The position numbers were made by a program, and so were the translations under genes. Of a stretch of 11,778 bases of DNA, positions 1,098 to 11,778 are shown piece by piece. Each line of letters begins with the position of its first letter. Positions within the stretch are counted from its first letter, which is position 1. Source of the DNA: Oscillospiraceae bacterium (GTDB lineage: Bacteria > Bacillota > Clostridia > Oscillospirales > Acutalibacteraceae); contig WQRM01000035.1 of the NCBI GenBank assembly GCA_009786735.1, positions 1 to 11,778 of the forward strand. The letters are read 5' to 3'. A model generated the notes under the pieces. The model saw only the letters and a program-made list of their open reading frames with translations. It was not told the origin of the DNA and ran no database searches.

Positions 1098-3188
1098 CTA
1101 AACCACACTGTTGAGGATTTGCGCATACGTGGGGAACGCCCAGTATTTGTTGGCAACAAGGGTTTCCAACTCGTCAACGACCAACCGAAGCTCGGTCATC
1201 GCGGCAAAGAGTTTGTCGCGGCTGAATCGCGCTTGCTCAAGGGCTCCGCGCTCTTGACCCGCTTGCAGCAGGGTATCCTCCAACGCGTTGAGCTTTTTCA
1301 GCATCAGCGAAGATGAGTTTGCAATCTTTTTGAGGAAATACTCCTCCAAGCCTTTGTCCACGCCGCCGCAGTCCATTTTGCGCCGCACCAAACATGCCAG
1401 CTCATTTTGATAGCTGATGCAAGCGGGAACGATCTCGCCTTTCACCATGTCTACCATCGTCAGTGCTTCGATGTGCAAGGTTTTGGCGTAGTTCTCCAGC
1501 AAGATTTCGTAGCGTGCGTGCAGCTCGGACTCGGTGAGCACATGGTGCTTGGTGAAGAGTTCCACGCTTGCGGGCGATACGAGTGTCGGCAATGCCTCCA
1601 CCGTGGTGCGCAGGTTGGAAAGCCCGCGCGCGTGCGCTTCGGTGACCCATTCGTCGGCATAGTTGTTGCCGTTGAAGATGATGCGCTTGTGCGCTTTGAT
1701 GGTTTTTTTCACAAGCTTCGCAAGCGCTTTAGTGAAGTCTTCGCTGCCCTCTAGGCTGTCGGCAAACTGCCGCAGCACTTCGGCCACCATGGTGTTGAGC
1801 ACGAAGTTCGGGCCTGCCACCGAAAACGTTGAGCCAAGCATGCGGAACTCAAACTTGTTGCCGGTGAAAGCGAATGGCGACGTGCGGTTGCGGTCGGTGG
1901 TGTCCTGCGGGAAGTGTGGCAGCACGGTTACGCCGATTTCCATCGACTGCTGTTGCTGCGGGCAATAGGCCTTGCCGGACTCAAGGGCATCGAGAATGGC
2001 GGTGAGTTCGTCACCCAGGAACATCGAAATGATGGCGGGCGGGGCTTCGTTAGCACCCAAGCGATGGTCGTTGCCCGCGCTTGCGGCCGACACCCGCAGC
2101 AGGTCTTGATAATCGTCCACGGCTTTGATCACCGCAACGAGGAACAGCAAAAACTGCGCGTTTTCGTGCGGGGTTTTGCCGGGGTTGAGCAAGTTGATGC
2201 CGGTGTCTGTGCTAACGGACCAGTTGTTGTGTTTGCCGCTGCCATTGACGCCTGCAAAGGGCTTTTCGTGCAACAGGCAGGCCAAACCATGGCGGTCGGC
2301 AACAACTTTCATCAGTTCCATCGTCAGCTGGTTATGGTCGGTAGCGATGCTCGTGGTGGTATAGATTGGCGCAAGCTCGTGCTGCGCGGGAGCAACTTCG
2401 TTGTGCTTGGTTTTGGCGCAAACGCCCAGCTTCCACAGCTCTTCGTCCAGGTCTTTCATGAAAGCACTCACCCGGGGCTTGAGTGTGCCAAAATAGTGGT
2501 CGTCAAGGTCTTGCCCTTTGGGCGGACGAGCGCCGAAGAGCGTTCTGCCGGTGTTGATGAGGTCGGGACGCTTGAGGAATGTTTCTTTGTCGATGAGGAA
2601 ATATTCCTGCTCGGGCCCAACTTCAGACACCACGCGCGTTGCGGTGGTGTTGCCGAACAGCCGCAGAACGCGCAGGGCTTGTGTCTCCAGGGCTTGCATG
2701 GAGCGCAGCAGGGGCGTTTTTTTGTCAAGGGCTTCGCCGTTGTAGCCACAAAAGGCGGTGGGAATGCACAGCGTGCCGTCTTTGATGAAGGCGTAGGAGG
2801 TGGTGTCCCACACGGTGTAGCCGCGGGCTTCAAAGGTGCAGCGCAGCCCGCCGGAGGGGAAGCTTGATGCATCGGGTTCGCCGCACACGAGCGCTTTGCC
2901 CGAAAATTCCATGATGATTTTGCCATCGCCATTGGGGGAGATGAAGCTGTCATGTTTTTCGGCGGTAGTGCCTGTCATGGGCTGAAACCAGTGCGTGAAG
3001 TGCGAGGCACCTCTGGCAACCGCCCAGTCTTTCATGGCGCTTGCCACCACGTTCGCCACTTCGCGGTCCAGGTGCGTGCCGCCGGAGATGGTGCGCCGCA
3101 GCGCCTTGTAGGTGTCTTTGGGCAGGTGTTCGCGCATGGCTTCGTCATTGAATACCATTGAGCCGAATAATTCGGGAATCTGTTTCAT
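1098..3188 (-). CDS. glnN: Glutamine synthetase type III (GSIII, GlnN)
   Basis: A 696-residue GSIII makes glutamine from glutamate, ammonium and ATP. The length matches GSIII (about 700 residues, dodecameric) and is far above GSI or GSII. Family signatures are visible: [15 protein letters not shown] near residue 65, the acidic [11 protein letters not shown] metal-site segment, [29 protein letters not shown], and [17 protein letters not shown] chose the ATG at 3188 over an in-frame GTG at 3197, because that GTG lies inside the AAAGGTG ribosome binding site that serves the ATG. It is the last gene of the glutamate synthase operon, 39 bp after the GXGXG subunit with no terminator or clear promoter between, so it should be co-transcribed and come under the ANTAR leader at 8087-8140. 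A second, unrelated-type synthetase (GSI) lies upstream at 8763-10082. Confidence 0.96.
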
Positions 3189-3194
3189 GTCAAT

Positions 3195-3202
3195 CACCTT
3201 TC
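3195..3202 (-). promoter_or_regulatory. Ribosome binding site that fixes the glnN start
   Basis: GAAAGGTG lies 6 bases before the ATG at 3188. The alternative GTG start at 3197 falls inside this site, which argues for the shorter protein. Confidence 0.75.
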
Positions 3203-3227
3203 GGAATGTATTACTTTATCAAGTCGC

Positions 3228-3872
3228 TTAGTTCGCGACATAAAGTTGATGGTAGGGGTTCGTTGCGTTGGGGCAAAGCACATAAAATTGGCTTTGCAGC
3301 AGCTCGTTTGCGTCAAACGAAAAATGCTGTGCAAACTGCGTAACATACGCCGCGATTTCTTGCAGGTCTTCGGGCGTGGCTGCATGTTGGCTCACCTGTG
3401 CGGGCAGATGCTCAAGTGGCTGCTGTGCACGAATGAAAATCTTGCCGCCGTGCATGCCTGTGCCGGTGAAGTTGCCCGCTGGGCTGTCGGCGCAGTCCAT
3501 GCTCAACACAACGATTAAACCGCCGGCCATGTATTCGCCCAAAAAGCTGCCCGCGCCACCGCCGATGACCAACACCGGCTTTTGGCTTTCGTATTCCTTC
3601 ATGTGGATGCCTGCGCGATAACCCGCGCTTCCGCGCACGTAGATCTCGCCGCCACGCATGGCATAGCCGAGGGCATCGCCTGCGCTGCCGTGCACGATGA
3701 TGGTGCCGTGGTTCATGGTGTCGCCCACGGCATCTTGCACATTGCCCTGCACGGTGATTTCGCCGCCGTCCAGATACGCGCCCATGGCGTTGCCGGGTGT
3801 GCCGCTCAGGTGCAGTGTTTCGCCGGTTTTGAGACCCGCGCCCAAAAAGCGCTCGCCGCAACAAGTGGTCAT
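3228..3872 (-). CDS. Glutamate synthase GXGXG-domain subunit (GltB C-terminal domain as a separate protein)
   Basis: This 214-residue protein corresponds to the last domain of the large glutamate synthase subunit. It is a right-handed beta-helix made of repeated G-x-x-x-G units. The repeats are clear: GTPGNAMGAYLDGG, GNVQDAVGDTMNHG, GSAGDALGYAMRGG and GSAGYRAGIHM, followed by VLVIGGGAGSFLGEYMAGG and GNFTGTGMHGGKIFIR. In whole GltB this domain is structural, helping to position the amidotransferase and FMN domains; it has no known catalytic residues. The ATG at 3872 overlaps the TGA of the preceding FAD oxidoreductase gene by 4 bases (ATGA), and GGGAGGTGA sits 6 bases upstream, so translation is probably coupled. 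Similar domains occur in formylmethanofuran dehydrogenase subunit C, but the neighbouring amidotransferase and FMN genes make the glutamate synthase assignment firm. Confidence 0.93.
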   Translation of the reverse strand: MTTCCGERFLGAGLKTGETLHLSGTPGNAMGAYLDGGEITVQGNVQDAVGDTMNHGTIIVHGSAGDALGYAMRGGEIYVRGSAGYRAGIHMKEYESQKPVLVIGGGAGSFLGEYMAGGLIVVLSMDCADSPAGNFTGTGMHGGKIFIRAQQPLEHLPAQVSQHAATPEDLQEIAAYVTQFAQHFSFDANELLQSQFYVLCPNATNPYHQLYVAN

Positions 3873-5041
3873 GTTGGTTCACCTCCCAGCGTTTTCTGTC
3901 GGTGTTCCCGGGTGAAGGCCATCAGCCCCGGTGTTTCGCAAATTAGCGCAAAGTCAATGCTGTCCAGCGGCGTTTGCTCGCGGATGAGGCTGGTGTAGAT
4001 GCCCGCTTTGTCCACATCGCCGATGAGCATGAAGCCGTTGAGGCGGTTGCCGCTGTGGAACAATTTCTTGCCCGGTGCGGTGTAGACTTCGCCGGTGTAG
4101 TTGCCCGCGGTGACGATGTGCAGGCCGAAAAAGCCCACGGCGTTCATGGGAATCGCCTTGCCAAAGCTTGCGTTGCCGCCTGCCATGTTGATGCCCGCGC
4201 ACTCGCCTTGCAAGAAGGCATTGGGCAACAACGCCATAACTTTGCTTTGCCCGCTGGCGATGTCGATGGTCTGCGTGCAGTCGCCCGCGGCGTAGATGTT
4301 CGCCGCCGTGGTTTCGCTTTTGTCGTTGACAACGATGCCCTGCTCAATTTGCGCGATGCCTTGCAGCAACGCGGTGTTCGGTCGCTGCCCCACAGCAAGC
4401 ACCACGATGTCATATTCATTTGAAGGTTGCGCCGGTTGCCCCAGCGCAAACGCCACGCCGTGGCTTTCCAGATGCGCTTGCACTTGCGCGGCGCTTTCCG
4501 CATCCAAAATGGCGGGCAGAATTTGCGGCGCGAGGTCGGCTACCGTGACCTGCTCGACACGTTTGAGAATGCCCTCCGCGCATTTAAGCCCCACCAGCCC
4601 CGCGCCAATAATCAGCACACGTTTGCTTGGGTCAAGGGCGGCTTCAAGGGCAAGTGCGTCGTCTAGGGTGGTGAAGGTGAAGCGGTTCGGCACGCTATCG
4701 AGGCCTTCAATCGGCGGCACAACTGGCGACGCGCCTGTGCCCACCAGCAGCTTGTCGTAGGCAAGGGTGCTGCCGTCGGCTAACGTGACTTGCCCGGCGC
4801 TCACCTGTGTGACCTCGCCGTGCAGCAGCGCGCAATTGTGCGCGGCATAAAAATCGTCCGGGCGGTATTTCATGCTGTCACGCGTGGTTTTGCCCTGCAG
4901 CAGATAGGAAATGAGCGGGCGCGAGTAGGTGTGGTGCGGCTCGTGGGTGACGATGGTGATGTCGCCGTGCGGGTCAACCTGGCGAATGCCCTGCACCGCG
5001 CCGATGCCCGCCGCTGAATTGCCGATGATGACATACTTCAT
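3869..5041 (-). CDS. FAD/NAD(P)-dependent pyridine nucleotide-disulfide-type oxidoreductase, probable electron-input subunit of glutamate synthase
   Basis: This is a 390-residue two-dinucleotide-fold flavoprotein. The N-terminal FAD fold starts IIGNSAAGIGAVQGIR (residues 5-20). A second Rossmann motif for NAD(P)H, RVLIIGAGLVGLKCAEG, begins at residue 141. YDKLLVGTGASP (95-106) and NIYAAGDC (249-256) are the usual flavin-contact motifs of the family that includes rubredoxin reductase and the N-terminus of nitrite reductase NirB. No CxxxxC redox disulfide is seen. I infer that it oxidises NAD(P)H and passes electrons through the adjacent ferredoxin to the FMN/Fe-S core, the role of GltD in ordinary bacterial glutamate synthase. 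It is not GltD itself, which carries its own Fe-S domain. I set the start at the ATG at 5041, since the frame upstream only overlaps the ferredoxin gene. That ATG overlaps the ferredoxin TGA by 4 bases. The physiological donor and acceptor are inferred from context. Confidence 0.9.
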   Translation of the reverse strand: MKYVIIGNSAAGIGAVQGIRQVDPHGDITIVTHEPHHTYSRPLISYLLQGKTTRDSMKYRPDDFYAAHNCALLHGEVTQVSAGQVTLADGSTLAYDKLLVGTGASPVVPPIEGLDSVPNRFTFTTLDDALALEAALDPSKRVLIIGAGLVGLKCAEGILKRVEQVTVADLAPQILPAILDAESAAQVQAHLESHGVAFALGQPAQPSNEYDIVVLAVGQRPNTALLQGIAQIEQGIVVNDKSETTAANIYAAGDCTQTIDIASGQSKVMALLPNAFLQGECAGINMAGGNASFGKAIPMNAVGFFGLHIVTAGNYTGEVYTAPGKKLFHSGNRLNGFMLIGDVDKAGIYTSLIREQTPLDSIDFALICETPGLMAFTREHRQKTLGGEPT

Positions 5042-5478
5042 CGCGCAGCCCCCCTTTCCTCGAATACGATCGCACCGTTGGGGCAGCCGCGCACGCAAGC
5101 CGGTGTGCCCGCGCTGCTTTGCACGCACAGTTCGCACTTTTGCATCACGCCGTGCGCCGTGGAAGCCACTGCGCCAAAGGGACAAACCAGCACGCAGGTG
5201 CAACAGCCCACACAGCGGTCTTGGTCGATGGCGACCATGCCGTCGGTCACGGTCAATGCGCCGGTGATGCAGCTTTTCACGCACAGCGCGTCTTTGCAGT
5301 GGCGACACGACACCGCAAAGCTGATGCCGTCTTTCTCTTCAATGCGCATGCGCGGGTGGATTTTCATGCCTGCGAGTGCCCGTGCCATGTCGCGCTCGCC
5401 GGTGCCGGCGAAGGCACAATAGTATTCACACAAGCGACAGCCCAAGCACCATTGCTCGTTCACATAAATTTTCTTCAT
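5038..5478 (-). CDS. 4Fe-4S polyferredoxin (HycB/DmsB-like electron transfer subunit)
   Basis: A 146-residue iron-sulfur protein with four cysteine groups: C11/14/17/21, C58/61/66/70, C89/92/95/99 and C115/118/128/132. This spacing is that of the four-cluster electron-transfer subunits related to HycB and DmsB. An extra Cys (C93) lies inside the third group. There is no signal peptide, so it should be cytosolic. It sits between the FMN glutamate synthase gene (3 bp after that stop) and the FAD oxidoreductase gene (4-bp overlap), which fits a wire carrying electrons between the two flavoproteins. GGGGGAG lies 6 bases before the ATG. The Fe-S protein family is certain; its partner assignment rests on gene order. 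Confidence 0.92.
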   Translation of the reverse strand: MKKIYVNEQWCLGCRLCEYYCAFAGTGERDMARALAGMKIHPRMRIEEKDGISFAVSCRHCKDALCVKSCITGALTVTDGMVAIDQDRCVGCCTCVLVCPFGAVASTAHGVMQKCELCVQSSAGTPACVRGCPNGAIVFEERGAAR

Positions 5479-5481
5479 CAG

Positions 5482-6987
5482 CTACTCCCCCGCATGCCGG
5501 ATGCCCAGGATTTCCAGCTCTTTCTCGTTTAAGCCAATTCCGCGCAACATTGACCGGTTGCCCTTGAGGCTTTCGATGGAATTGATGCCCATGCCGCCCA
5601 TCATCTCTTTGATTTCGTGCCGCCAAGCGTTCATCAGGTTCACCAGACGGCGGTGCCCGATGTCGGGGTTCAGGCGGCGGGTGAGCTGTGGCTCTTGCGT
5701 GGCGATGCCCCAGTTGCACTTGCCCGCATGGCAGCTTCTGCACAGGTGGCAGCCCAGCGCCATCAGCGCCGAAGTGCCGATGTACACACAGTCCGCGCCC
5801 AGCGCCACGGCCTTGACGACATCTGCGCTGGAACGAATGCTGCCGCCGACGATGATGGATACGTTGTCGCGTATTCCTTCGTCGCGCAGGCGTTGGTCAA
5901 CGCTGGCGAGGGCAAGTTCAATGGGAATGCCCACGTTGTCGCGGATGCGCGTGGGTGTTGCGCCCGAGCCGCCGCGAAAGCCATCAATGGCGATGATATC
6001 TGCGCCGCTGCGGGCAATGCCGCTGGCGATGGCGGTGACGTTGTGCACGGCGGCGATTTTCACAATCACCGGCTTTTTGTGCCCGGTGACCGTCTTGAGC
6101 GAATACACCAGCTGGCGCAGGTCTTCAATGGAGTAGATGTCGTGGTGTGGTGCGGGCGAAATTGCGTCGCTGCCCTCGGGAATCATGCGCGTGCGGGAGA
6201 TGTCGCCCACGATTTTCGTGCCCGGCAGGTGTCCGCCGATGCCCGGTTTTGCGCCTTGCCCCATCTTGATTTCGATGGCGGCGCCGCTGTTGAGATACGC
6301 CGAGTGCACCCCAAAGCGCCCCGATGCCACCTGCACGATGGTGTTCGCGCCGTATTCGTAGAAGTCTTCGTGCAAACCACCTTCGCCGGTGTTGTAGAGA
6401 ATGCCCAGCTCCTGCGCGGCGCGGGCGAGGCTTTCGTGCGCGTTGTAGCTAATCGAGCCATAGCTCATCGCCGAGAACATCACCGGCATAGACAGTGAAA
6501 TCTGCGGCGGCAGGTTGTTGATCATGCGACCGTTTTCGTCGCGCTGGATGTCTCGCGGGCGCGCACCGAGCGACACCTTGGATTCCATGGGTTCGCGCAG
6601 TGGGTCGATGGATGGATTGGTCACCTGCGAAGCATTCAGCAGGATTTTCTCGAAGTATACGGGATACCGTTGCGGGCAGCCCATGCTCGACAACAGCACG
6701 CCGCCGGTGTCCGCTTGGCGATACAGCTCGTTGATGGTGCGGTTGGTCCAGTTGCTGTTGGGGCGATAGGTGTTGCCGCTTGGGATGATCTTCAGCGCGC
6801 GCGTGGGGCACAAGCTCACACAACGATGACAGTTCACGCACTTTGCGTCGTCGCACACCATTTTGTCGTGCTCGGACAGATATTCATGCACCTCGTTGGC
6901 GCATTGACGTTCACACACACGGCAGTTGATGCATCGGTCGCGGTTGCGCACCACTTCATGTTCAGGATATATCCAGTTAATTCCCAT
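5482..6987 (-). CDS. Glutamate synthase FMN/Fe-S core subunit (archaeal-type GltB2) with N-terminal ferredoxin domain
   Basis: This 501-residue protein is the catalytic heart of glutamate synthase: ammonia and 2-oxoglutarate are condensed and reduced to glutamate on FMN. The N-terminus holds two 4Fe-4S groups (C19/22/25/29 and C50/53/56/60). The FMN-binding TIM barrel follows, with KMGQGAKPGIGGHLPGTKI, GFRGGSGATPTRIRDNVGIP and IIVGGSIRSSADVVKAVALGAD summarised as GGSIRSS...ALGAD. Next is a cysteine cluster, CHLCRSCHAGKCNWGIATQ, in the place of the GltB 3Fe-4S site. The ATG at 6987 is preferred over an upstream TTG because GGAGG lies 6 bases before it. The gene overlaps the amidotransferase gene by 11 bases and precedes the ferredoxin gene by 3, so assembly as a complex is likely. 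Whole GltB subunits are about 1500 residues; here the amidotransferase and GXGXG domains are separate proteins. Confidence 0.95.
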   Translation of the reverse strand: MGINWIYPEHEVVRNRDRCINCRVCERQCANEVHEYLSEHDKMVCDDAKCVNCHRCVSLCPTRALKIIPSGNTYRPNSNWTNRTINELYRQADTGGVLLSSMGCPQRYPVYFEKILLNASQVTNPSIDPLREPMESKVSLGARPRDIQRDENGRMINNLPPQISLSMPVMFSAMSYGSISYNAHESLARAAQELGILYNTGEGGLHEDFYEYGANTIVQVASGRFGVHSAYLNSGAAIEIKMGQGAKPGIGGHLPGTKIVGDISRTRMIPEGSDAISPAPHHDIYSIEDLRQLVYSLKTVTGHKKPVIVKIAAVHNVTAIASGIARSGADIIAIDGFRGGSGATPTRIRDNVGIPIELALASVDQRLRDEGIRDNVSIIVGGSIRSSADVVKAVALGADCVYIGTSALMALGCHLCRSCHAGKCNWGIATQEPQLTRRLNPDIGHRRLVNLMNAWRHEIKEMMGGMGINSIESLKGNRSMLRGIGLNEKELEILGIRHAGE

Positions 6988-8065
6988 GTTCAACCTCCAC
7001 AATCACGGGCTCGCCGCCCTTGGGCGCCCACACGCTTTCCAGTTGCGGCGCAATCACGCGGATGGCCGCTTCTTCGCTGGCGATATAGGTCATGTTGCCT
7101 TGTTCGCCCACCACCATGCTGCGTAGCTTGAGCCGGTCGTTGAGCGCCATCAGCCCGCCCTCGTGACCCACGAGGATAGAGAACGGACCGGTAATCAGCT
7201 GCGGTGCGAACATCACACGCAGATATTCAAGGGTTTCGCGCTCGGCTTGCGGCATGCGTTGAATCGTTTGCCAAAAAGGTGCTGCAATCACCGAGGAAAT
7301 TTCCGGCAGCGTCAAGCCCTTCTTGCGGTGCAGATAATCGACGATGTAGGTGATGACCTCCGTGTCGGTCTGCAGGGTGCACTTGTAGCCATACATCTCG
7401 ATGGCGCGGCGGTTGGCGTCGTAGGACGAAATTTCGCCGTTGTGCACCACGGCGTAATCCAGCAGCGCAAAGGGGTGCGCGCCGCCCCACCAGCCCGGCG
7501 TGTTGGTTGGATAACGCCCATGGGCGGTGAAGCACCAGCCCTCATATTCCTCCAGCCGATAGAACCGCCCCACGTCTTCAGGAAAACCCACCGCCTTGAA
7601 CACGCCCATGTTTTTGCCGGACGAAAACACGTATGCGCCATCATACTGCGTGTTCACGCGGAACACACAGCGCGCCACAAACTCGCGTTCGTCCAGCTGG
7701 CTGTCGGTCAGTTTGCTGGGCAGCGGGGTGACGAAGTAGCGCCAAATATACGGCTCGTCGGTGATTTCTTTCATCTTGCGCGTGGGGATTTTCGACAGGT
7801 TGATGATGTCGAAATGGCGCTCGAAGAACGCCTCGCAGTCGCGACGCACTGCGGTGCTGTCGAAAAAAACATGCAAAGCATAGTAGTCTTTGTATTGCGG
7901 ATAAATGCCGTAGGCAGCAAAACCGCCGCCCAAGCCATTGGAGCGGTCGTGCATCACGGCGATGGACTTGATGATGTCCTCGCCGCAAAAACGGCGGCCG
8001 CTTTTATCAATCATGCCGGATATCGCGCAGCCGGATGGAATGCGCACTTGCCCTTCACGTAGCAT
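6977..8065 (-). CDS. Class II glutamine amidotransferase, glutaminase subunit of split glutamate synthase (GltB1-like)
   Basis: This 362-residue Ntn-hydrolase should release ammonia from glutamine for the FMN core subunit encoded next. Class II amidotransferase residues are visible: nucleophile Cys13 in IPSGCAISG, Arg184 in HGRYPTNTPGWWGG, Asn209-Gly210 in VVHNGEIS, and Asp234 in LQTDTEV. The Cys is preceded by 12 residues, so the protein probably needs removal of a short propeptide to expose the N-terminal nucleophile, as in GltB and PurF; cleavage itself is inferred. I chose the ATG at 8065 because AGGAGGT lies 7 bases upstream; an in-frame start 13 codons earlier falls within the terminator leader and is unlikely. 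It is the first gene of the operon, right behind the ANTAR-type leader, and its 3' end overlaps the next gene by 11 bases. Confidence 0.93.
   Translation of the reverse strand: MLREGQVRIPSGCAISGMIDKSGRRFCGEDIIKSIAVMHDRSNGLGGGFAAYGIYPQYKDYYALHVFFDSTAVRRDCEAFFERHFDIINLSKIPTRKMKEITDEPYIWRYFVTPLPSKLTDSQLDEREFVARCVFRVNTQYDGAYVFSSGKNMGVFKAVGFPEDVGRFYRLEEYEGWCFTAHGRYPTNTPGWWGGAHPFALLDYAVVHNGEISSYDANRRAIEMYGYKCTLQTDTEVITYIVDYLHRKKGLTLPEISSVIAAPFWQTIQRMPQAERETLEYLRVMFAPQLITGPFSILVGHEGGLMALNDRLKLRSMVVGEQGNMTYIASEEAAIRVIAPQLESVWAPKGGEPVIVEVEHGN
6994..6998 (-). promoter_or_regulatory. Ribosome binding site of the FMN core gene, inside the amidotransferase gene
   Basis: GGAGG is 6 bases before the ATG at 6987 and lies within the last codons of the amidotransferase gene. 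It rules against the upstream TTG as the start and makes translational coupling likely. Confidence 0.75.
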
Positions 8066-8072
8066 GGAAAAA

Positions 8073-8079
8073 ACCTCCT
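8073..8079 (-). promoter_or_regulatory. Ribosome binding site of the amidotransferase gene
   Basis: AGGAGGT, a full consensus site, lies 7 bases before the ATG at 8065. It settles the start codon and sits just after the leader terminator, so it is transcribed only on readthrough. Confidence 0.85.
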
Positions 8080-8086
8080 GAAATGC

Positions 8087-8121
8087 AAAAAAGACACCCA
8101 TCAACCACCCATAGCGGATGC
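8087..8121 (-). terminator. Leader terminator (attenuator) of the glutamate synthase operon
   Basis: GCATCC (8121-8116) can pair with GGGTGT (8099-8094), directly followed by C and six T (8092-8087). The 6-bp stem is weak, includes two G-U pairs, and has a long 16-base loop, so the fold is a hypothesis. Its 5' arm is the 5' arm of the second ANTAR-type hairpin, so the two structures exclude each other. That is the arrangement expected for antitermination. Confidence 0.55.
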
Positions 8122-8140
8122 TGATAAGCGCCTTTGCTTA
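8099..8140 (-). promoter_or_regulatory. ANTAR-type dual-hairpin antiterminator in the glutamate synthase operon leader
   Basis: Two hairpins lie four bases apart on the transcript. The first is TAAGC-AAAGGC-GCTTA (8140-8125), a perfect 5-bp stem with a six-base loop. The second is CATCCGCT-ATGGGT-GGTTGATG (8120-8099), eight positions with one C-U mismatch and two G-U pairs, again with a six-base loop. Both loops have A at position 1 and G at position 4. ANTAR proteins are known to bind exactly such paired hexaloop hairpins and so prevent formation of an overlapping terminator. An ANTAR regulator gene ends 54 bases upstream, and the terminator overlapping the second hairpin is listed separately. 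The first hairpin begins at about the predicted transcription start, so a start more than a base or two downstream would trim it. Confidence 0.75.
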
Positions 8141-8146
8141 GCCTAC

Positions 8147-8175
8147 AGTATAGCAGAATTTCGCGCGGTTGTCAA
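8147..8175 (-). promoter_or_regulatory. Sigma-A promoter of the glutamate synthase/GSIII operon
   Basis: TTGACA (8175-8170) and TATACT (8152-8147) are separated by exactly 17 bases. The start should fall near 8138-8142, giving a leader of about 75 bases. The -35 box lies within the palindrome CGGTT-GAC-AACCG (8178-8166), a possible operator. No terminator is seen between the ANTAR gene and this promoter, so readthrough from the glnA operon may add to its output. Confidence 0.85.
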
Positions 8176-8193: not shown

Positions 8194-8763
8194 TTAATTT
8201 TCATACAATTTGATAATCCCCTCGGCGATTTCCCGCTTGGCGGTGCGGGAGTCCATCGCCTGCTTTTCGATGTAGCGATGCGCCTGCTCTTCGCTCATGC
8301 TCAGCTGCGACACCAACATGCATTTTGCGCGGTTGATGATGCGGATGTCGTCAATCTTTTGCTGCAGCTGCACGTTTTCTGTTTGCATGCGGCGAATGCG
8401 GTTGTGCGCGGACTTGGCGAACATCAGCGCAGACCAAAGCGTGGGTTTGCTGATGGGCTTGGCGATGGTGAGCACGCCAGCACACTCGCACAGCGCAGAC
8501 ACCGCATCGTGGTATTCGCTTTTGACCACGAGAATCACTTGCGTTGTGCCCCGAGAAGCGATGTCGCACGATAATTTTTCGCCGGATTCGTCGCGCAGCA
8601 AAGAGTTGATGATGACCAGGTCGAAGTCTCGCTCGCACAGCCGCCGCCGCGCTTCGCCACCCGAGCGTAGCGCAGCAATCTGCTGCACACCGGCTTCATG
8701 CAACAGCTTTGTGAAATATTCGGCGCCTTTTTCCGAGCGGCTAACGATCAGTGCACTTTCCAC
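8194..8763 (-). CDS. ANTAR-domain response-regulator-like antiterminator (NitR-like nitrogen regulator)
   Basis: This 189-residue protein has an N-terminal receiver-like domain (about residues 1-115), a short helical linker rich in charged residues (MQTENVQLQQKIDDIRI), and a C-terminal ANTAR RNA-binding domain (about 130-189) with NRAKCMLVSQLSMSEEQAHRYIEKQAMD and REIAEGIIKLYE in key positions. ANTAR proteins act by antitermination on nascent RNA. The receiver lacks the usual phospho-acceptor: Asn53 replaces Asp in DLVIINSLL, and the early acidic pair is Ser-Arg-Ser-Glu; only the KP motif (Lys102) remains. It is thus probably not controlled by ordinary phosphorylation. The GTG start overlaps the glnA stop by one base (TAGTG), with GGGG 8-11 bases upstream. 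Its likely target is the leader at 8087-8140, just downstream. Clostridial nitR genes also lie next to glnA, which supports a nitrogen role. Confidence 0.92.
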   Translation of the reverse strand: MESALIVSRSEKGAEYFTKLLHEAGVQQIAALRSGGEARRRLCERDFDLVIINSLLRDESGEKLSCDIASRGTTQVILVVKSEYHDAVSALCECAGVLTIAKPISKPTLWSALMFAKSAHNRIRRMQTENVQLQQKIDDIRIINRAKCMLVSQLSMSEEQAHRYIEKQAMDSRTAKREIAEGIIKLYEN

Positions 8764-10082
8764 TAAATTACCCCAAAGTAGCGTTGTGTGTAAAATTCTG
8801 CTTTGTCTTTCGCCGCAGCAAAGTGGGCGATTTCCGGTTGCTTGTGCGCAAGATAAACCGCAAGGAGCTCTTCGCCCAGCACGCGCTTGACGAAATCGCT
8901 TTGTTGCGCAAGCTTCAAGGCTTTTTCCAGGCTTTCGGGCAGCTGCGCCAGTGCGCTCGTTACGCTTGCGTCCGCCGCATACAAGTCGGCATCCACGGCT
9001 GGCGGCAGCGAAAGCGCTTGCTCAATGCCCTCGAGCCCTGCGGCAATGATCAGCGCAAAGGCAAGGTAGGGGTTGAGTGCCGGGTCGGGCGAGCGCAGTT
9101 CCATGCGCGCTTTTTCGCCGTTGGCGGCGGGAATGCGCACGAGCTGCGAGCGGTTTTCGTGTGACCACGAAACATATTTGGGCGCTTCAAACTTGCCGAA
9201 GCGTTCGTAGGAATTGGTGATGGGGTTGAGAAACAGCGTGATTTCCGGCGTTTTGGCGAGCACTCCTGCGATGAAGCTTTCGGCGGCCTCACTGTGTCCT
9301 TGACCCACGCCGCTGAAGATGTTCGTTCCGTTGTGCGAAAGCGACAGATTCACATGCAGCCCGCTGCCCACCGCGCCCAATATCGGCTTTGGCATGAACG
9401 AAGCAAACAGTCCGTTGCGCGCAGCAATGGCCTTAACCACGCTTTTGAAGGTCAGCAGATTGTCGGCACTGGTCAGCGCATCGCTGAAGCGAAAGTCAAT
9501 TTCGTTTTGCCCGGGCCCTTGTTCGTGGTGCGACGTCTCGGGTGTCACGCCCATTTCCTCAAGGGTCAGGCAAATTTCGCGGCGAATATCCTCCCCGCGA
9601 TCCAGTGGCGCAATATCCAAATAGCCACCGTGGTCAAGCGGCGTGGTGGTTGGTTCGCCGTCGTCGTCGGTGTTGAACAGATAGAACTCGCACTCCGCGC
9701 CCACATTGCAGGTGTAGCCCATGGCTTCGGCTTTCGCAACCACTTGTTTGAGCAGCGTGCGCCCATCGTGCAAAAAGGCAGCGCCATCGGGCGTTTTGAT
9801 GTCGCAGAAAAACCGCGCCACGCGTCCCGGCCCTGGCCGCCAAGGCAGCAGGGTTAGGGTGGCTGGGTCGGGAAACAACAGCAAGTCTGAGCGTGTTACA
9901 TCACGAAAGCCCAGCACAGCATGGGCATCAAACGAAATGCCATGCTCAAACGCGGCAGGCAGTTCACTGCCCATGATAGAAATGTTTTTTTGCACCCCAA
10001 ACAAATCGCAAAAACCAAGCCGAACGAACTTCACATCGTTTTCTTGAACAAACTCCAGCACCTCGGCAGCCATTGTGCTCAT
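8763..10082 (-). CDS. glnA: Glutamine synthetase type I (GlnA)
   Basis: A 439-residue GSI, the usual length for the Firmicute alpha form, makes glutamine from glutamate, ammonium and ATP as a dodecamer. Visible motifs include GFRDVTRSDLLLFPDP, GAECEFYLF (metal ligands), HHEQGPGQNEIDFR, GSGLHVNLSLS, NPITNSYERF, the ENRSQLVRIP substrate arginine segment, and RMELRSPDPALNPYLA. Tyr is present in DADLY, near the position adenylylated in proteobacteria, but no adenylyltransferase gene is seen here and Firmicutes normally do not use that switch. The latch segment reads FDAHAV (Asp52-Ala55) where B. subtilis and E. coli have Asp-Gly-Ser-Ser. The ATG at 10082 has GGGGG 8 bases upstream; a second Met at residue 4 is possible. 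It heads a two-gene operon with the ANTAR regulator, under a consensus promoter with a short leader. Confidence 0.96.
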   Translation of the reverse strand: MSTMAAEVLEFVQENDVKFVRLGFCDLFGVQKNISIMGSELPAAFEHGISFDAHAVLGFRDVTRSDLLLFPDPATLTLLPWRPGPGRVARFFCDIKTPDGAAFLHDGRTLLKQVVAKAEAMGYTCNVGAECEFYLFNTDDDGEPTTTPLDHGGYLDIAPLDRGEDIRREICLTLEEMGVTPETSHHEQGPGQNEIDFRFSDALTSADNLLTFKSVVKAIAARNGLFASFMPKPILGAVGSGLHVNLSLSHNGTNIFSGVGQGHSEAAESFIAGVLAKTPEITLFLNPITNSYERFGKFEAPKYVSWSHENRSQLVRIPAANGEKARMELRSPDPALNPYLAFALIIAAGLEGIEQALSLPPAVDADLYAADASVTSALAQLPESLEKALKLAQQSDFVKRVLGEELLAVYLAHKQPEIAHFAAAKDKAEFYTQRYFGVI

Positions 10083-10115: not shown

Positions 10116-10144
10116 ATTATAAAGTAAATTTGCCCGGTTGTCAA
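10116..10144 (-). promoter_or_regulatory. Sigma-A promoter of glnA and the ANTAR gene
   Basis: TTGACA (10144-10139) and TATAAT (10121-10116) are both perfect and 17 bases apart. Transcription should start near 10108, leaving a leader of about 26 bases with no hairpin or attenuator. Control, if any, must act at initiation or on the enzyme. Confidence 0.88.
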
Positions 10145-10155
10145 TGAAAATTTGC

Positions 10156-10184
10156 TTGACAAACGCCACGAACTGTAGTATAAT
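10156..10184 (+). promoter_or_regulatory. Sigma-A promoter of pyrG
   Basis: TTGACA (10156-10161) and TATAAT (10179-10184) are perfect with a 17-base spacer. The predicted start is about 10191. It is divergent from the glnA promoter; the two -35 boxes are only 11 bases apart. Confidence 0.9.
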
Positions 10185-10197
10185 GGTAGTGATGCAA

Positions 10198-10213
10198 GCA
10201 GCAATGGCGCTGT
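10198..10213 (+). promoter_or_regulatory. Possible ANTAR-type hexaloop hairpin overlapping the pyrG attenuator
   Basis: GCAGC-AATGGC-GCTGT can form a 5-bp stem (last pair G-U) with a six-base loop having A at position 1 and G at position 4. The core AGCAATGGCGCT (10200-10211) matches AGCAAAGGCGCT in the first hairpin of the glutamate synthase leader at 11 of 12 bases. It shares bases with the 5' arm of the pyrG terminator, so the two exclude each other. No convincing partner hairpin is found upstream, so its role is uncertain. Confidence 0.4.
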
Positions 10214-10249
10214 GGGCTTTATTTTGCCCACGGCGCTGTTTTTTATTTT
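10203..10249 (+). terminator. Intrinsic terminator in the pyrG leader (attenuator)
   Basis: GGCGCTGTGGGC (10206-10217) pairs along its whole length, with two wobble pairs, with GCCCACGGCGCT (10226-10237) around an 8-base loop. Three more pairs extend the base. It is followed by TTTTTTATTTT (10239-10249). It lies between the promoter and the pyrG ribosome binding site, so most transcripts should stop unless antitermination occurs. Confidence 0.88.
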
Positions 10250-10263
10250 GAGGAGGGCTTGAG

Positions 10264-11778
10264 ATGACCAAGTATATCTTCGTAACCGGCGGGGTGGTGA
10301 GCGGCCTTGGCAAGGGGATCACAGCGGCAAGCCTGGGGCGGCTGCTCAAGCAGCGCGGGATGAACGTTACCGCGCAAAAACTTGACCCCTACATGAACGT
10401 TGACCCCGGCACGATGAGCCCGCTGCAACACGGCGAGGTCTTTGTCACCGACGACGGCGCGGAGACCGACCTGGATTTGGGGCACTACGAGCGCTTCATT
10501 GACGAAAACTTGACGAAAACCAGCAACCTCACCAGCGGGCAAGTTTATCGCAATGTGCTTGACCGCGAGCGCGCCGGTGAATACCACGGCGGCACGGTGC
10601 AGGTGATTCCCCATGTGACGCAGGAAATCAAGGATTTCATCTATGCCGGTGCGCGCCACAGTGGCGCGGATGTGCTCATCACCGAAATCGGCGGCACGGT
10701 TGGCGACATCGAATGCCAGCCATTTTTGGAGGCGGCACGGCAAATTTCGTTGGAGCAAGGCAGCACAAACTGCCTGTTTATTCATGTCACACTGGTGCCC
10801 TACCTCAAGTGCAGCGGCGAGCATAAGAGCAAACCCACGCAGCATAGTGTGAAAGAACTGCGCAGCCTGGGCATTGCGCCCAACGTGATTGTCGCCCGCG
10901 CCGAGCAGCCGCTCGGGCCTGGCATCGCCGACAAAATCGCGTTGTTTTGCAACGTGAAGGCCGACTGCGTGATTGAAAACCTTGACTTGACTTCGTTGTA
11001 TACCGCGCCGCTGATGTTCCACCAAAATGGTCTCGACCGCGTGGTGTGCCGCGAGCTAAACCTGCAAACGCCCGCGCCGGATCTCACCGATTGGCGCGCC
11101 ATGACAGAGAAAATCGCTGCGCGCAAGCGGGAAGTCAGCATTGCCATTGTGGGCAAGTATGTGCAGCTGCACGACGCCTATCTTTCCATCATCGAAAGTC
11201 TGAACCACGCGGGCTTTGCACATGGCGCACGGGTGAACATCGCGTGGGTGGACAGCGAAAGCGCAACCCTCGCGCAAGACTTGCAGGGCGTTGACGGCAT
11301 GATTATTCCCGGTGGATTCGGCGACCGCGGCATTGAGGGCAAGATTGCCGCCTGCCGCATCGCGCGTGAACAAGACATCCCGCTGCTGGGCATTTGCTTG
11401 GGCATGCAGGTGGCGGTGATTGAGTTCGCGCGGCACGTGTGCGGGCTGGATGACGCGAACTCCGCCGAGTTTGATGAAACCTCGCCGCACCGCGTGATTG
11501 ACTACATGCCCGGGCAAGTGGGCAAGGTGGGCAGCGGCGGCACAATGCGTCTGGGTGCGTATCCCTGCAGCATCGCGCCGGGCACGCGCCTGCACGCGCT
11601 GTATCAAGCCGACGACATCAGCGAGCGGCATCGCCACCGCTTTGAGTTCAACAATGACTATCGCCAGCAGCTCACACAGGCGGGGCTGACGATTTGCGGC
11701 ACCTCGCCGGACGACAGCCTCGTTGAGGCCATCGAGCTGCCGGGCAAGCGTTTTTTCGTGGGCGTGCAGTTTCATCCC
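10264..11778 (+). CDS. pyrG: CTP synthase, 3'-truncated by window edge
   Basis: PyrG converts UTP to CTP using glutamine nitrogen and ATP in the cytosol. The visible 505 residues run from the N-terminal synthetase domain ([20 protein letters not shown] at residues 6-25, [35 protein letters not shown]) through [14 protein letters not shown] to the C-terminal class I glutaminase domain ([10 protein letters not shown], nucleophile Cys378 in GICLGMQ, and QFHP at the very end, where His504 belongs to the triad). About 25-40 residues are missing beyond the window. GAGGAGG lies 7 bases before the ATG and follows directly on the leader terminator. The gene is divergent from glnA with 181 bp between start codons. 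Identity is certain; control by the leader attenuator is strongly suggested by sequence. Confidence 0.97.

Follow-up and report, generated by a model that had tools for sequence, protein, structure and literature searches.

A leader with one ANTAR-type hexaloop, probably an attenuator, precedes the glutamate synthase and GSIII operon of an Oscillospiraceae bacterium

The window, an 11,778-nt stretch of DNA from an Oscillospiraceae bacterium, carries on its minus strand, in order of transcription, glnA, a gene for a regulator with receiver and ANTAR domains (REC+ANTAR), a promoter, a leader and six genes for a split glutamate synthase and a type III glutamine synthetase (GSIII). The features in and around the leader are:

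8763–10082, minus strand: glnA (glutamine synthetase), immediately preceding the regulator gene
8194–8763, minus strand: NitR-like regulator, a pseudo-receiver (N53 at the phospho-Asp position) plus ANTAR domain (Pfam, alignment)
8147–8175, minus strand: promoter of the GATase operon, −35 box TTGACA (8175–8170), 17-nt spacer, −10 box TATACT (8152–8147), 11 of 12 consensus positions matching
8125–8140, minus strand: candidate antiterminator hairpin TAAGC[AAAGGC]GCTTA, hexaloop 8135–8130 with A1 and G4 (scan, folding, covariation in relatives)
8090–8135, minus strand: intrinsic terminator, 5′ arm 8135–8116, loop 8115–8111, 3′ arm 8110–8090, bulge 8106 (folding, covariation)
8087–8092, minus strand: U6 tract, predicted termination point (sequence)
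near 8079–8074, minus strand: ribosome-binding site (RBS) AGGAGG of the GATase gene
6977–8065, minus strand: operon gene 1, glutamate synthase class-II glutamine amidotransferase domain (GATase)
1098–6987, minus strand: remainder of the operon, namely
5482–6987, minus strand: GltS
5038–5478, minus strand: Fer4
3869–5044, minus strand: pyridine-nucleotide oxidoreductase
3228–3872, minus strand: GXGXG
1098–3197, minus strand: GSIII

The promoter, the six downstream genes and the REC+ANTAR protein (Pfam ANTAR, 2.5e-16; Response_reg, 2.1e-9) are as an earlier reading of the locus, made from the sequence alone, had described them. The base of the hexaloop hairpin (P1) lies 6 nt downstream of the −10 box; from the position of the promoter, the transcript should start at the hairpin or a few bases from it. 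This hairpin, the first of two in the sequence-only reading, is borne out with its A1 and G4, and we take it to resemble the 13-nt eut motif. The −35 box sits within an inverted repeat, CGGTTG-A-CAACCG (8180–8165), which may serve a DNA-binding protein as operator.

Folding predicts the terminator as the most stable structure of the leader, a 20-bp stem with one bulge and the loop GCUAU, at −24.5 kcal/mol (z = −5.5), a stability that no shuffle out of 200 attained; the RBS of the GATase gene lies outside this fold. The 5′ arm of the terminator consists of the hexaloop, the 3′ arm of P1 and further bases, and because both structures use the same bases, hairpin and terminator are mutually exclusive. 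P1 is weak in the window, at −3.3 kcal/mol against about −24 kcal/mol for the terminator. In folds of the growing transcript (lengths counted from 8143), every prefix tested from 20 to 44 nt has the hexaloop hairpin in its best fold; at 48 nt the hairpin is lost, and at 52 nt the terminator has formed.

Other parts of the earlier drawing gave way. Its second hairpin, with loop ATGGGT, reaches −3.9 kcal/mol as drawn, whereas the same 22 nt can fold to −5.8 kcal/mol, and two of the three pairs adjoining its loop are G-U. Both drawn hairpins together give −8.0 kcal/mol; at its most stable, −12.1 kcal/mol, that stretch retains the first hairpin and drops the second. The 6-bp terminator that it proposed stands at −4.8 kcal/mol, less stable than the best fold of its own segment (−6.5 kcal/mol); the six T at 8092–8087 are present. 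Since the best fold is the 20-bp terminator, the weak point admitted at the time, the short terminator stem, disappears.

We assign a probability of roughly 0.8 to the leader being a single-hexaloop ANTAR attenuator of the glutamate synthase (GOGAT)/GSIII operon. Its computed support comprises the exclusive structures, covariation, promoter spacing, the lack of enrichment for a second hexaloop of at least 4 bp, and co-occurrence with the regulator; regulator binding, antitermination and the nitrogen signal are what we infer. The central idea of the sequence-only reading, ANTAR antitermination of this operon by the adjacent regulator, is thereby retained (through conservation, covariation and co-occurrence) and its dual-hexaloop structure is given up; the response to nitrogen state that it envisaged agrees with the target genes and with what has been published on NitR. 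Mechanistically, the first ~16 nt of the transcript would fold into the hexaloop hairpin, which an active NitR-like regulator would bind and hold. The loop and the 3′ arm, which also make the terminator 5′ arm, would then be unavailable, the terminator would be blocked and RNA polymerase would continue into the six genes. With the regulator inactive, the terminator would displace the weak hairpin and transcription would end in the U6 tract at 8092–8087. The regulator would thus probably decide whether the nitrogen-assimilation genes are read.

The regulator has a match in 77 of the 118 genomes searched, the window's genome included. An early scan of relatives for dual hexaloops returned only a few mixed cases, and we therefore took up the single-loop reading. 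Regulator loci from 60 relatives and the window (61 sequences) were scanned for single-hexaloop elements, defined by one A1/G4 hexaloop, a C-G closing pair, a stem of at least 4 bp and a downstream arm complementary to loop and 3′ arm, with a T tract. The 88 raw hits, 52 of them with the loops AAAGGC or AATGGC (A1 and G4 being required by the scan), were reduced to 70 by four filters (loop AA.G[GA][CTG]; outside annotated genes; a promoter-like box or annotated gene nearby; limited length) and to 69 unique elements. These lie in the window and in 34 of the 60 relatives' loci; in the other 26 loci nothing passed the scan. Dinucleotide shuffling of the 61 sequences, done three times, gave 6 hits in all, or about 2 expected per set, under the loop filter only and not the other three. 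Within 300 nt downstream of the 69 elements are genes for GSIII (27), GATase (22), glnA (6) and CTP synthase (1), and 13 elements have something else downstream or a gene without annotation here.

Bases of the shared 3′ arm pair in both P1 and the terminator at stem positions 1–4 in 68, 67, 66 and 65 of the 69 elements, and the triples at position 4 include G-C-G (26), A-T-A (21) and C-G-C (12). In a 44-sequence alignment, 93.2% of cells are paired for P1, with 60 changed on both sides, and 96.0% for the terminator, with 107 changed on both sides, in each case reached by none of 500 shuffles. Two of the five covariation measures for P1 are not above the shuffles, namely pairs changed on both sides (value reached by 491 of 500) and further pair types (499 of 500). 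Judged from these comparisons, hairpin and terminator both appear to be under selection. Of the covariance search put forward with the sequence-only reading, compensatory changes are thus one outcome. Rfam 15 has no match at the leader, its five sub-threshold matches in the window lying elsewhere, and a covariance model of our own was therefore built, its training set including both elements of the window (the second is described below). On the loci of eight relatives, Rfam returned only tRNA at the gathering threshold and no match to the elements.

As a check on selection bias, we collected terminators whose 5′ arm starts with AANGGYG without requiring P1, both in this first set and in a second set of 79 loci with named organisms, which shares members with the first (L178 and G072, for example). 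P1 of at least 4 bp is present in 54 of 85 and 64 of 107 of these terminators, respectively, against 21% and 18% when the 5′ flanks are shuffled among sequences; the remainder includes mirror-strand copies of the same terminators. The second set contains 78 elements in 49 loci. Promoter spacing recurs in both: a −10-like box ends 4–14 nt upstream of P1 in 61 of the 69 elements, joined by a −35 box (at least 10 of 12 matches) in 50 of 69, and lies 2–15 nt upstream of the hairpin in 68 of the 78, with a −35 box in 51 of 78. Elements are also found in the cultured Clostridium methylpentosum DSM 5476, Sedimentibacter saalensis and Niameybacter massiliensis.

The regulator has the receiver and C-terminal ANTAR domain of the REC-ANTAR family, lies within a GS/GOGAT gene cluster as NitR-type regulators do, and matches the PDB sequences 1s8n (putative antiterminator), 1qo0 (AmiR) and 6wsh. 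Its named relatives at 61–65% identity (L171–L174, L191) are all labelled Oscillospiraceae. N53 aligns with D54 of EutV, so that the phosphorylatable Asp is missing; the position is N in 64 of 75 sequences and D in 8, these sequences being 75 of the 79 named loci, one dropped for a stop, plus the window. When EutV numbering, as given in excerpts of PMC8934654, is mapped onto the chain with an offset of two that we infer, K143, K147 and K149 become R, R and K in the window's regulator, His occupies the Tyr164 position in 75 of 75 sequences and Ile the Arg142 position in 64 of 75. The fold and much of the RNA-contact chemistry appear to be kept, with differences at two contact positions, and phosphorylation is probably not retained. 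Because the receiver lacks the phospho-Asp, the signal probably arrives through protein contact or a ligand and not through phosphorylation. In 45 of 60 loci the regulator gene directly follows glnA, an adjacency which suggests that glutamine synthetase, or its state, may be that signal. The 60 relatives' loci include 27 with a GATase gene upstream of the regulator and in the same orientation; there, glnA and the regulator may belong to the operon under attenuation. Should transcription run on from the glnA-regulator promoter, other sequence would precede the leader in those transcripts.

Hits of the covariance model occur in 50 of 77 relatives with the regulator against 5 of 41 without it (listings compared by hand). 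The five are G001, G076, G087, G088 and G094, and only G076 has a strict element. Ten regulator-negative genomes were checked for an ANTAR domain, which scored above the cut-off in G022 and G047 and was absent from G076. The strict element of that genome (L154, G076:C40) thus stands without a detected ANTAR protein in an assembly that is 90% complete. Across 393 genomes of the class, the model hits 69 of 118 with a NitR-like regulator (match at E ≤ 1e-40, our threshold), 21 of 130 with a weaker match and 9 of 145 with none (Fisher p = 5e-22, relatedness ignored); the remaining 49 of the 118 have no model hit. The same-genus genomes G002, G003, G005, G006, G007 and G013 have the regulator and no model hit. 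Co-occurrence of element and regulator is partly phylogeny. In the window's own genome (70% complete), the regulator is the only ANTAR protein found. EutA is encoded there as well (G000:C37:5055–6419, locus L293), despite the NitR-like protein being the sole ANTAR protein detected.

These data also bear on whether the leader could be a plain terminator or attenuator read by a ribosome, a small molecule or another RNA-binding protein, its position beside an ANTAR gene being coincidental. The G076 element without a detected ANTAR protein would agree with this explanation, which we consider quite unlikely: the 5′ arm of the hairpin, which lies outside the terminator, covaries with the 3′ arm, the loop AA.GGC is that of ANTAR targets, genomes with NitR-like regulators yield model hits more often, and no Rfam family is found at the leader or, at the gathering threshold, at the elements in eight relatives' loci.

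How many hexaloops the element has was assessed against other loop types. A further A1/G4 hexaloop with a stem of at least 4 bp occurs in 1 of 69 elements on the downstream side, within the element, where the 15 other loop types average 7.4, and in 1 of 69 on the upstream side, within 50 nt, where they average 2.6; both cases are in locus L058. When stems of 3 bp are admitted, second A1/G4 hexaloops are as frequent downstream as other types (11 of 69 against a mean of 13.1) and somewhat more frequent upstream (9 of 69 against 6.9); with Watson-Crick pairs only, the counts are 1 against 4.2 downstream and 7 against 2.9 upstream, so that at 3 bp a minority of elements may have a weak second loop. 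In the second set, an upstream A1/G4 hexaloop of at least 4 bp lies within 60 nt in 5 of 78. As a positive control, a similar scan that accepted stems down to 3 bp was run on 17 eutA loci and gave 13 hits; on our reading of the output, eight leaders have an element directly before eutA, and six of these eight have a second A1/G4 loop of at least 4 bp, with 21–27 nt from loop to loop. Eight tandem pairs, 63–89 nt apart and six of them before GSIII, are found among the 69 elements (loci L055, L056, L059, L063, L067, L076, L079 and L085); since both members of a pair satisfy the scan, each with a terminator of its own, we read them as two attenuators in series and not as one dual motif.

Apart from rare or possibly weak second loops in some relatives, neither the leader nor the relatives' elements therefore show the two hairpins with a short linker that characterize a dual-hexaloop element. 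They do have the one A1/G4 hexaloop hairpin of the minimal ANTAR motif, as redefined in excerpts of PMC8934654, and the combination of A1/G4 with exclusivity towards an intrinsic terminator that published ANTAR targets display. From its sequence features, the element is best called an ANTAR attenuator variant, which would work like one and fails the dual-loop definition. A classical dual-hexaloop element, with ATGGGT as a working hairpin overlapping a short terminator, is very improbable: the window's second loop has A1 and G4 at the right places and some relatives have weak 3-bp second loops, but the ATGGGT hairpin is not the best fold and two of its three loop-adjoining pairs are G-U, second A1/G4 hexaloops of at least 4 bp do not exceed chance in relatives, whereas a similar scan detects the dual loops of eutA leaders, and the best terminator uses the first loop. 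Highly improbable, too, is an element acting mainly on 5′-end stability, translation or regulator titration and not on antitermination, which would suit a hairpin at the predicted 5′ end and the sequestration proposed for single hexaloops in excerpts of PMC8934654, but not its overlap with a strong U-tailed terminator maintained through compensatory change, nor an RBS outside the best fold.

The single-hexaloop element is not confined to this operon. Two further copies lie in the same genome, the first in the window itself:

10156–10184, plus strand: promoter of CTP synthase, 12 of 12 consensus positions
10195–10243, plus strand: second single-hexaloop element, GCAGC[AATGGC]GCTGT (10198–10213), with overlapping terminator (10203–10240) (scan, folding)
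G000:C13:10397–10453 (locus L127), minus strand: third element of the genome, before purC (SAICAR synthetase) (covariance model)

The second element precedes the CTP synthase gene, pyrG, which starts at 10264, and the purC copy is matched by the model at E = 5.4e-9 from outside the training set. The same regulator probably controls both genes likewise. Other matches in this genome were left uncounted: C5:21416 (no hairpin), C137:2186 (14.3 bits) and C13:10393 on the plus strand, the mirror of the purC element. The region upstream of pyrG (10116–10184) holds two perfect consensus promoters, divergent and with 11 bp between their −35 boxes, the leftward one serving glnA-regulator through a short leader without an element and the rightward one serving pyrG.

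Forty further model hits in this and other genomes divide into 27 that pass a loose hairpin test and 13 that fail. By our reading, 22 of the 27 precede nitrogen or nucleotide genes, namely those for ammonium transporters, GSIII, glutamate dehydrogenase, glutamate synthase, CTP synthase, purC, a purB-like gene, gatC, dapF, an amidohydrolase and PII; L130, L150, L163, L164 and L165 do not. Pfam gave the expected family for nine of ten downstream proteins and none for the L154 protein, which we had read as purB. The ammonium transporter reading is Pfam-confirmed for one of seven cases (L136), and the hairpin of the PII case (L158) is weak. Of the 13 failing hits, 11 look like ordinary terminators (L128, L129, L135, L142, L143, L147, L149, L159, L160, L162 and L166) and L148, before asnA, has a hairpin and no T tract that passes. 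Used alone, the covariance model overcounts, as it also matches plain AAAGGC-GCC terminators without the antiterminator hairpin (for example, L142, L143 and L159). At L153 (G041:C41), the remaining one of the 13 failing hits, which precedes a GATase gene, the loop is GAAGGC, without A1.

A wider generalization is tentative and in our estimate rather doubtful: that in many Clostridia a non-phosphorylated NitR-type ANTAR protein and single hexaloops at +1 control a nitrogen regulon of GOGAT, GSIII, glnA, amt, GDH, CTP synthase and purine genes, with no recruitment hairpin needed and glutamine synthetase as the sensor. The elements themselves outline a candidate nitrogen regulon in Clostridia that takes in CTP and purine synthesis.

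Part of this picture has precedents. In Desulfotomaculum reducens, ANTAR elements have been associated with glutamate synthase genes, and elsewhere with glutamate or glutamine synthases (excerpts of PMC3369931); these elements have the same kind of target gene and were found with a dual-hairpin model. That glutamate and glutamine synthase genes can be under ANTAR control is already published. The primary paper on NitR is reportedly Stutz 2007. NitR of Clostridium saccharobutylicum, like the regulator here an ANTAR regulator of GS/GOGAT genes, is said in part of a review to induce them by antitermination under nitrogen limitation (PMC6316151). Compared with that system as reviewed, the RNA element is here defined and single-looped, pyrG and purC copies are added, and the glnA-regulator pair of the window is served by a separate promoter that no element follows. 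The RAT antiterminators of SacY/BglG involve another protein and another RNA motif than ANTAR. They, too, rely on one hairpin exclusive with a terminator (excerpts of PMC3369931).

The closest comparison is with ANTAR RNAs themselves, which the relevant passages of PMC3369931 and PMC8164766 define as dual stem-loops. Those of EutV/eutP, NasR/nasF and AmiR/amiE (excerpts of PMC3369931) share with the leader an A1/G4 hexaloop, a terminator-exclusive hairpin, an ANTAR regulator and nitrogen genes; here, by contrast, one hexaloop lies just behind the promoter. Its hairpin corresponds to the terminator-embedded P2 of the dual RNAs, and their upstream P1 'recruitment' hairpin is not seen. The window's leader and those of many relatives thus seem to use one hairpin where the textbook version has two. 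In the excerpted parts of PMC8934654, one EutV dimer contacts one loop, yet both hexaloops are needed for antitermination, for a reason that is left open; the authors propose a recruitment hairpin, ask what role single hexaloops play and suggest them for settings in which no transcribing polymerase imposes a time limit. Among the open-licence PMC papers searched we found no natural single-hexaloop attenuator. The existence of this class may be the reason such leaders would escape dual-loop models and Rfam. The elements described here would form a natural class with one loop under the polymerase's time limit, present also in cultured species, and they make the question of why EutV needs two loops directly testable.
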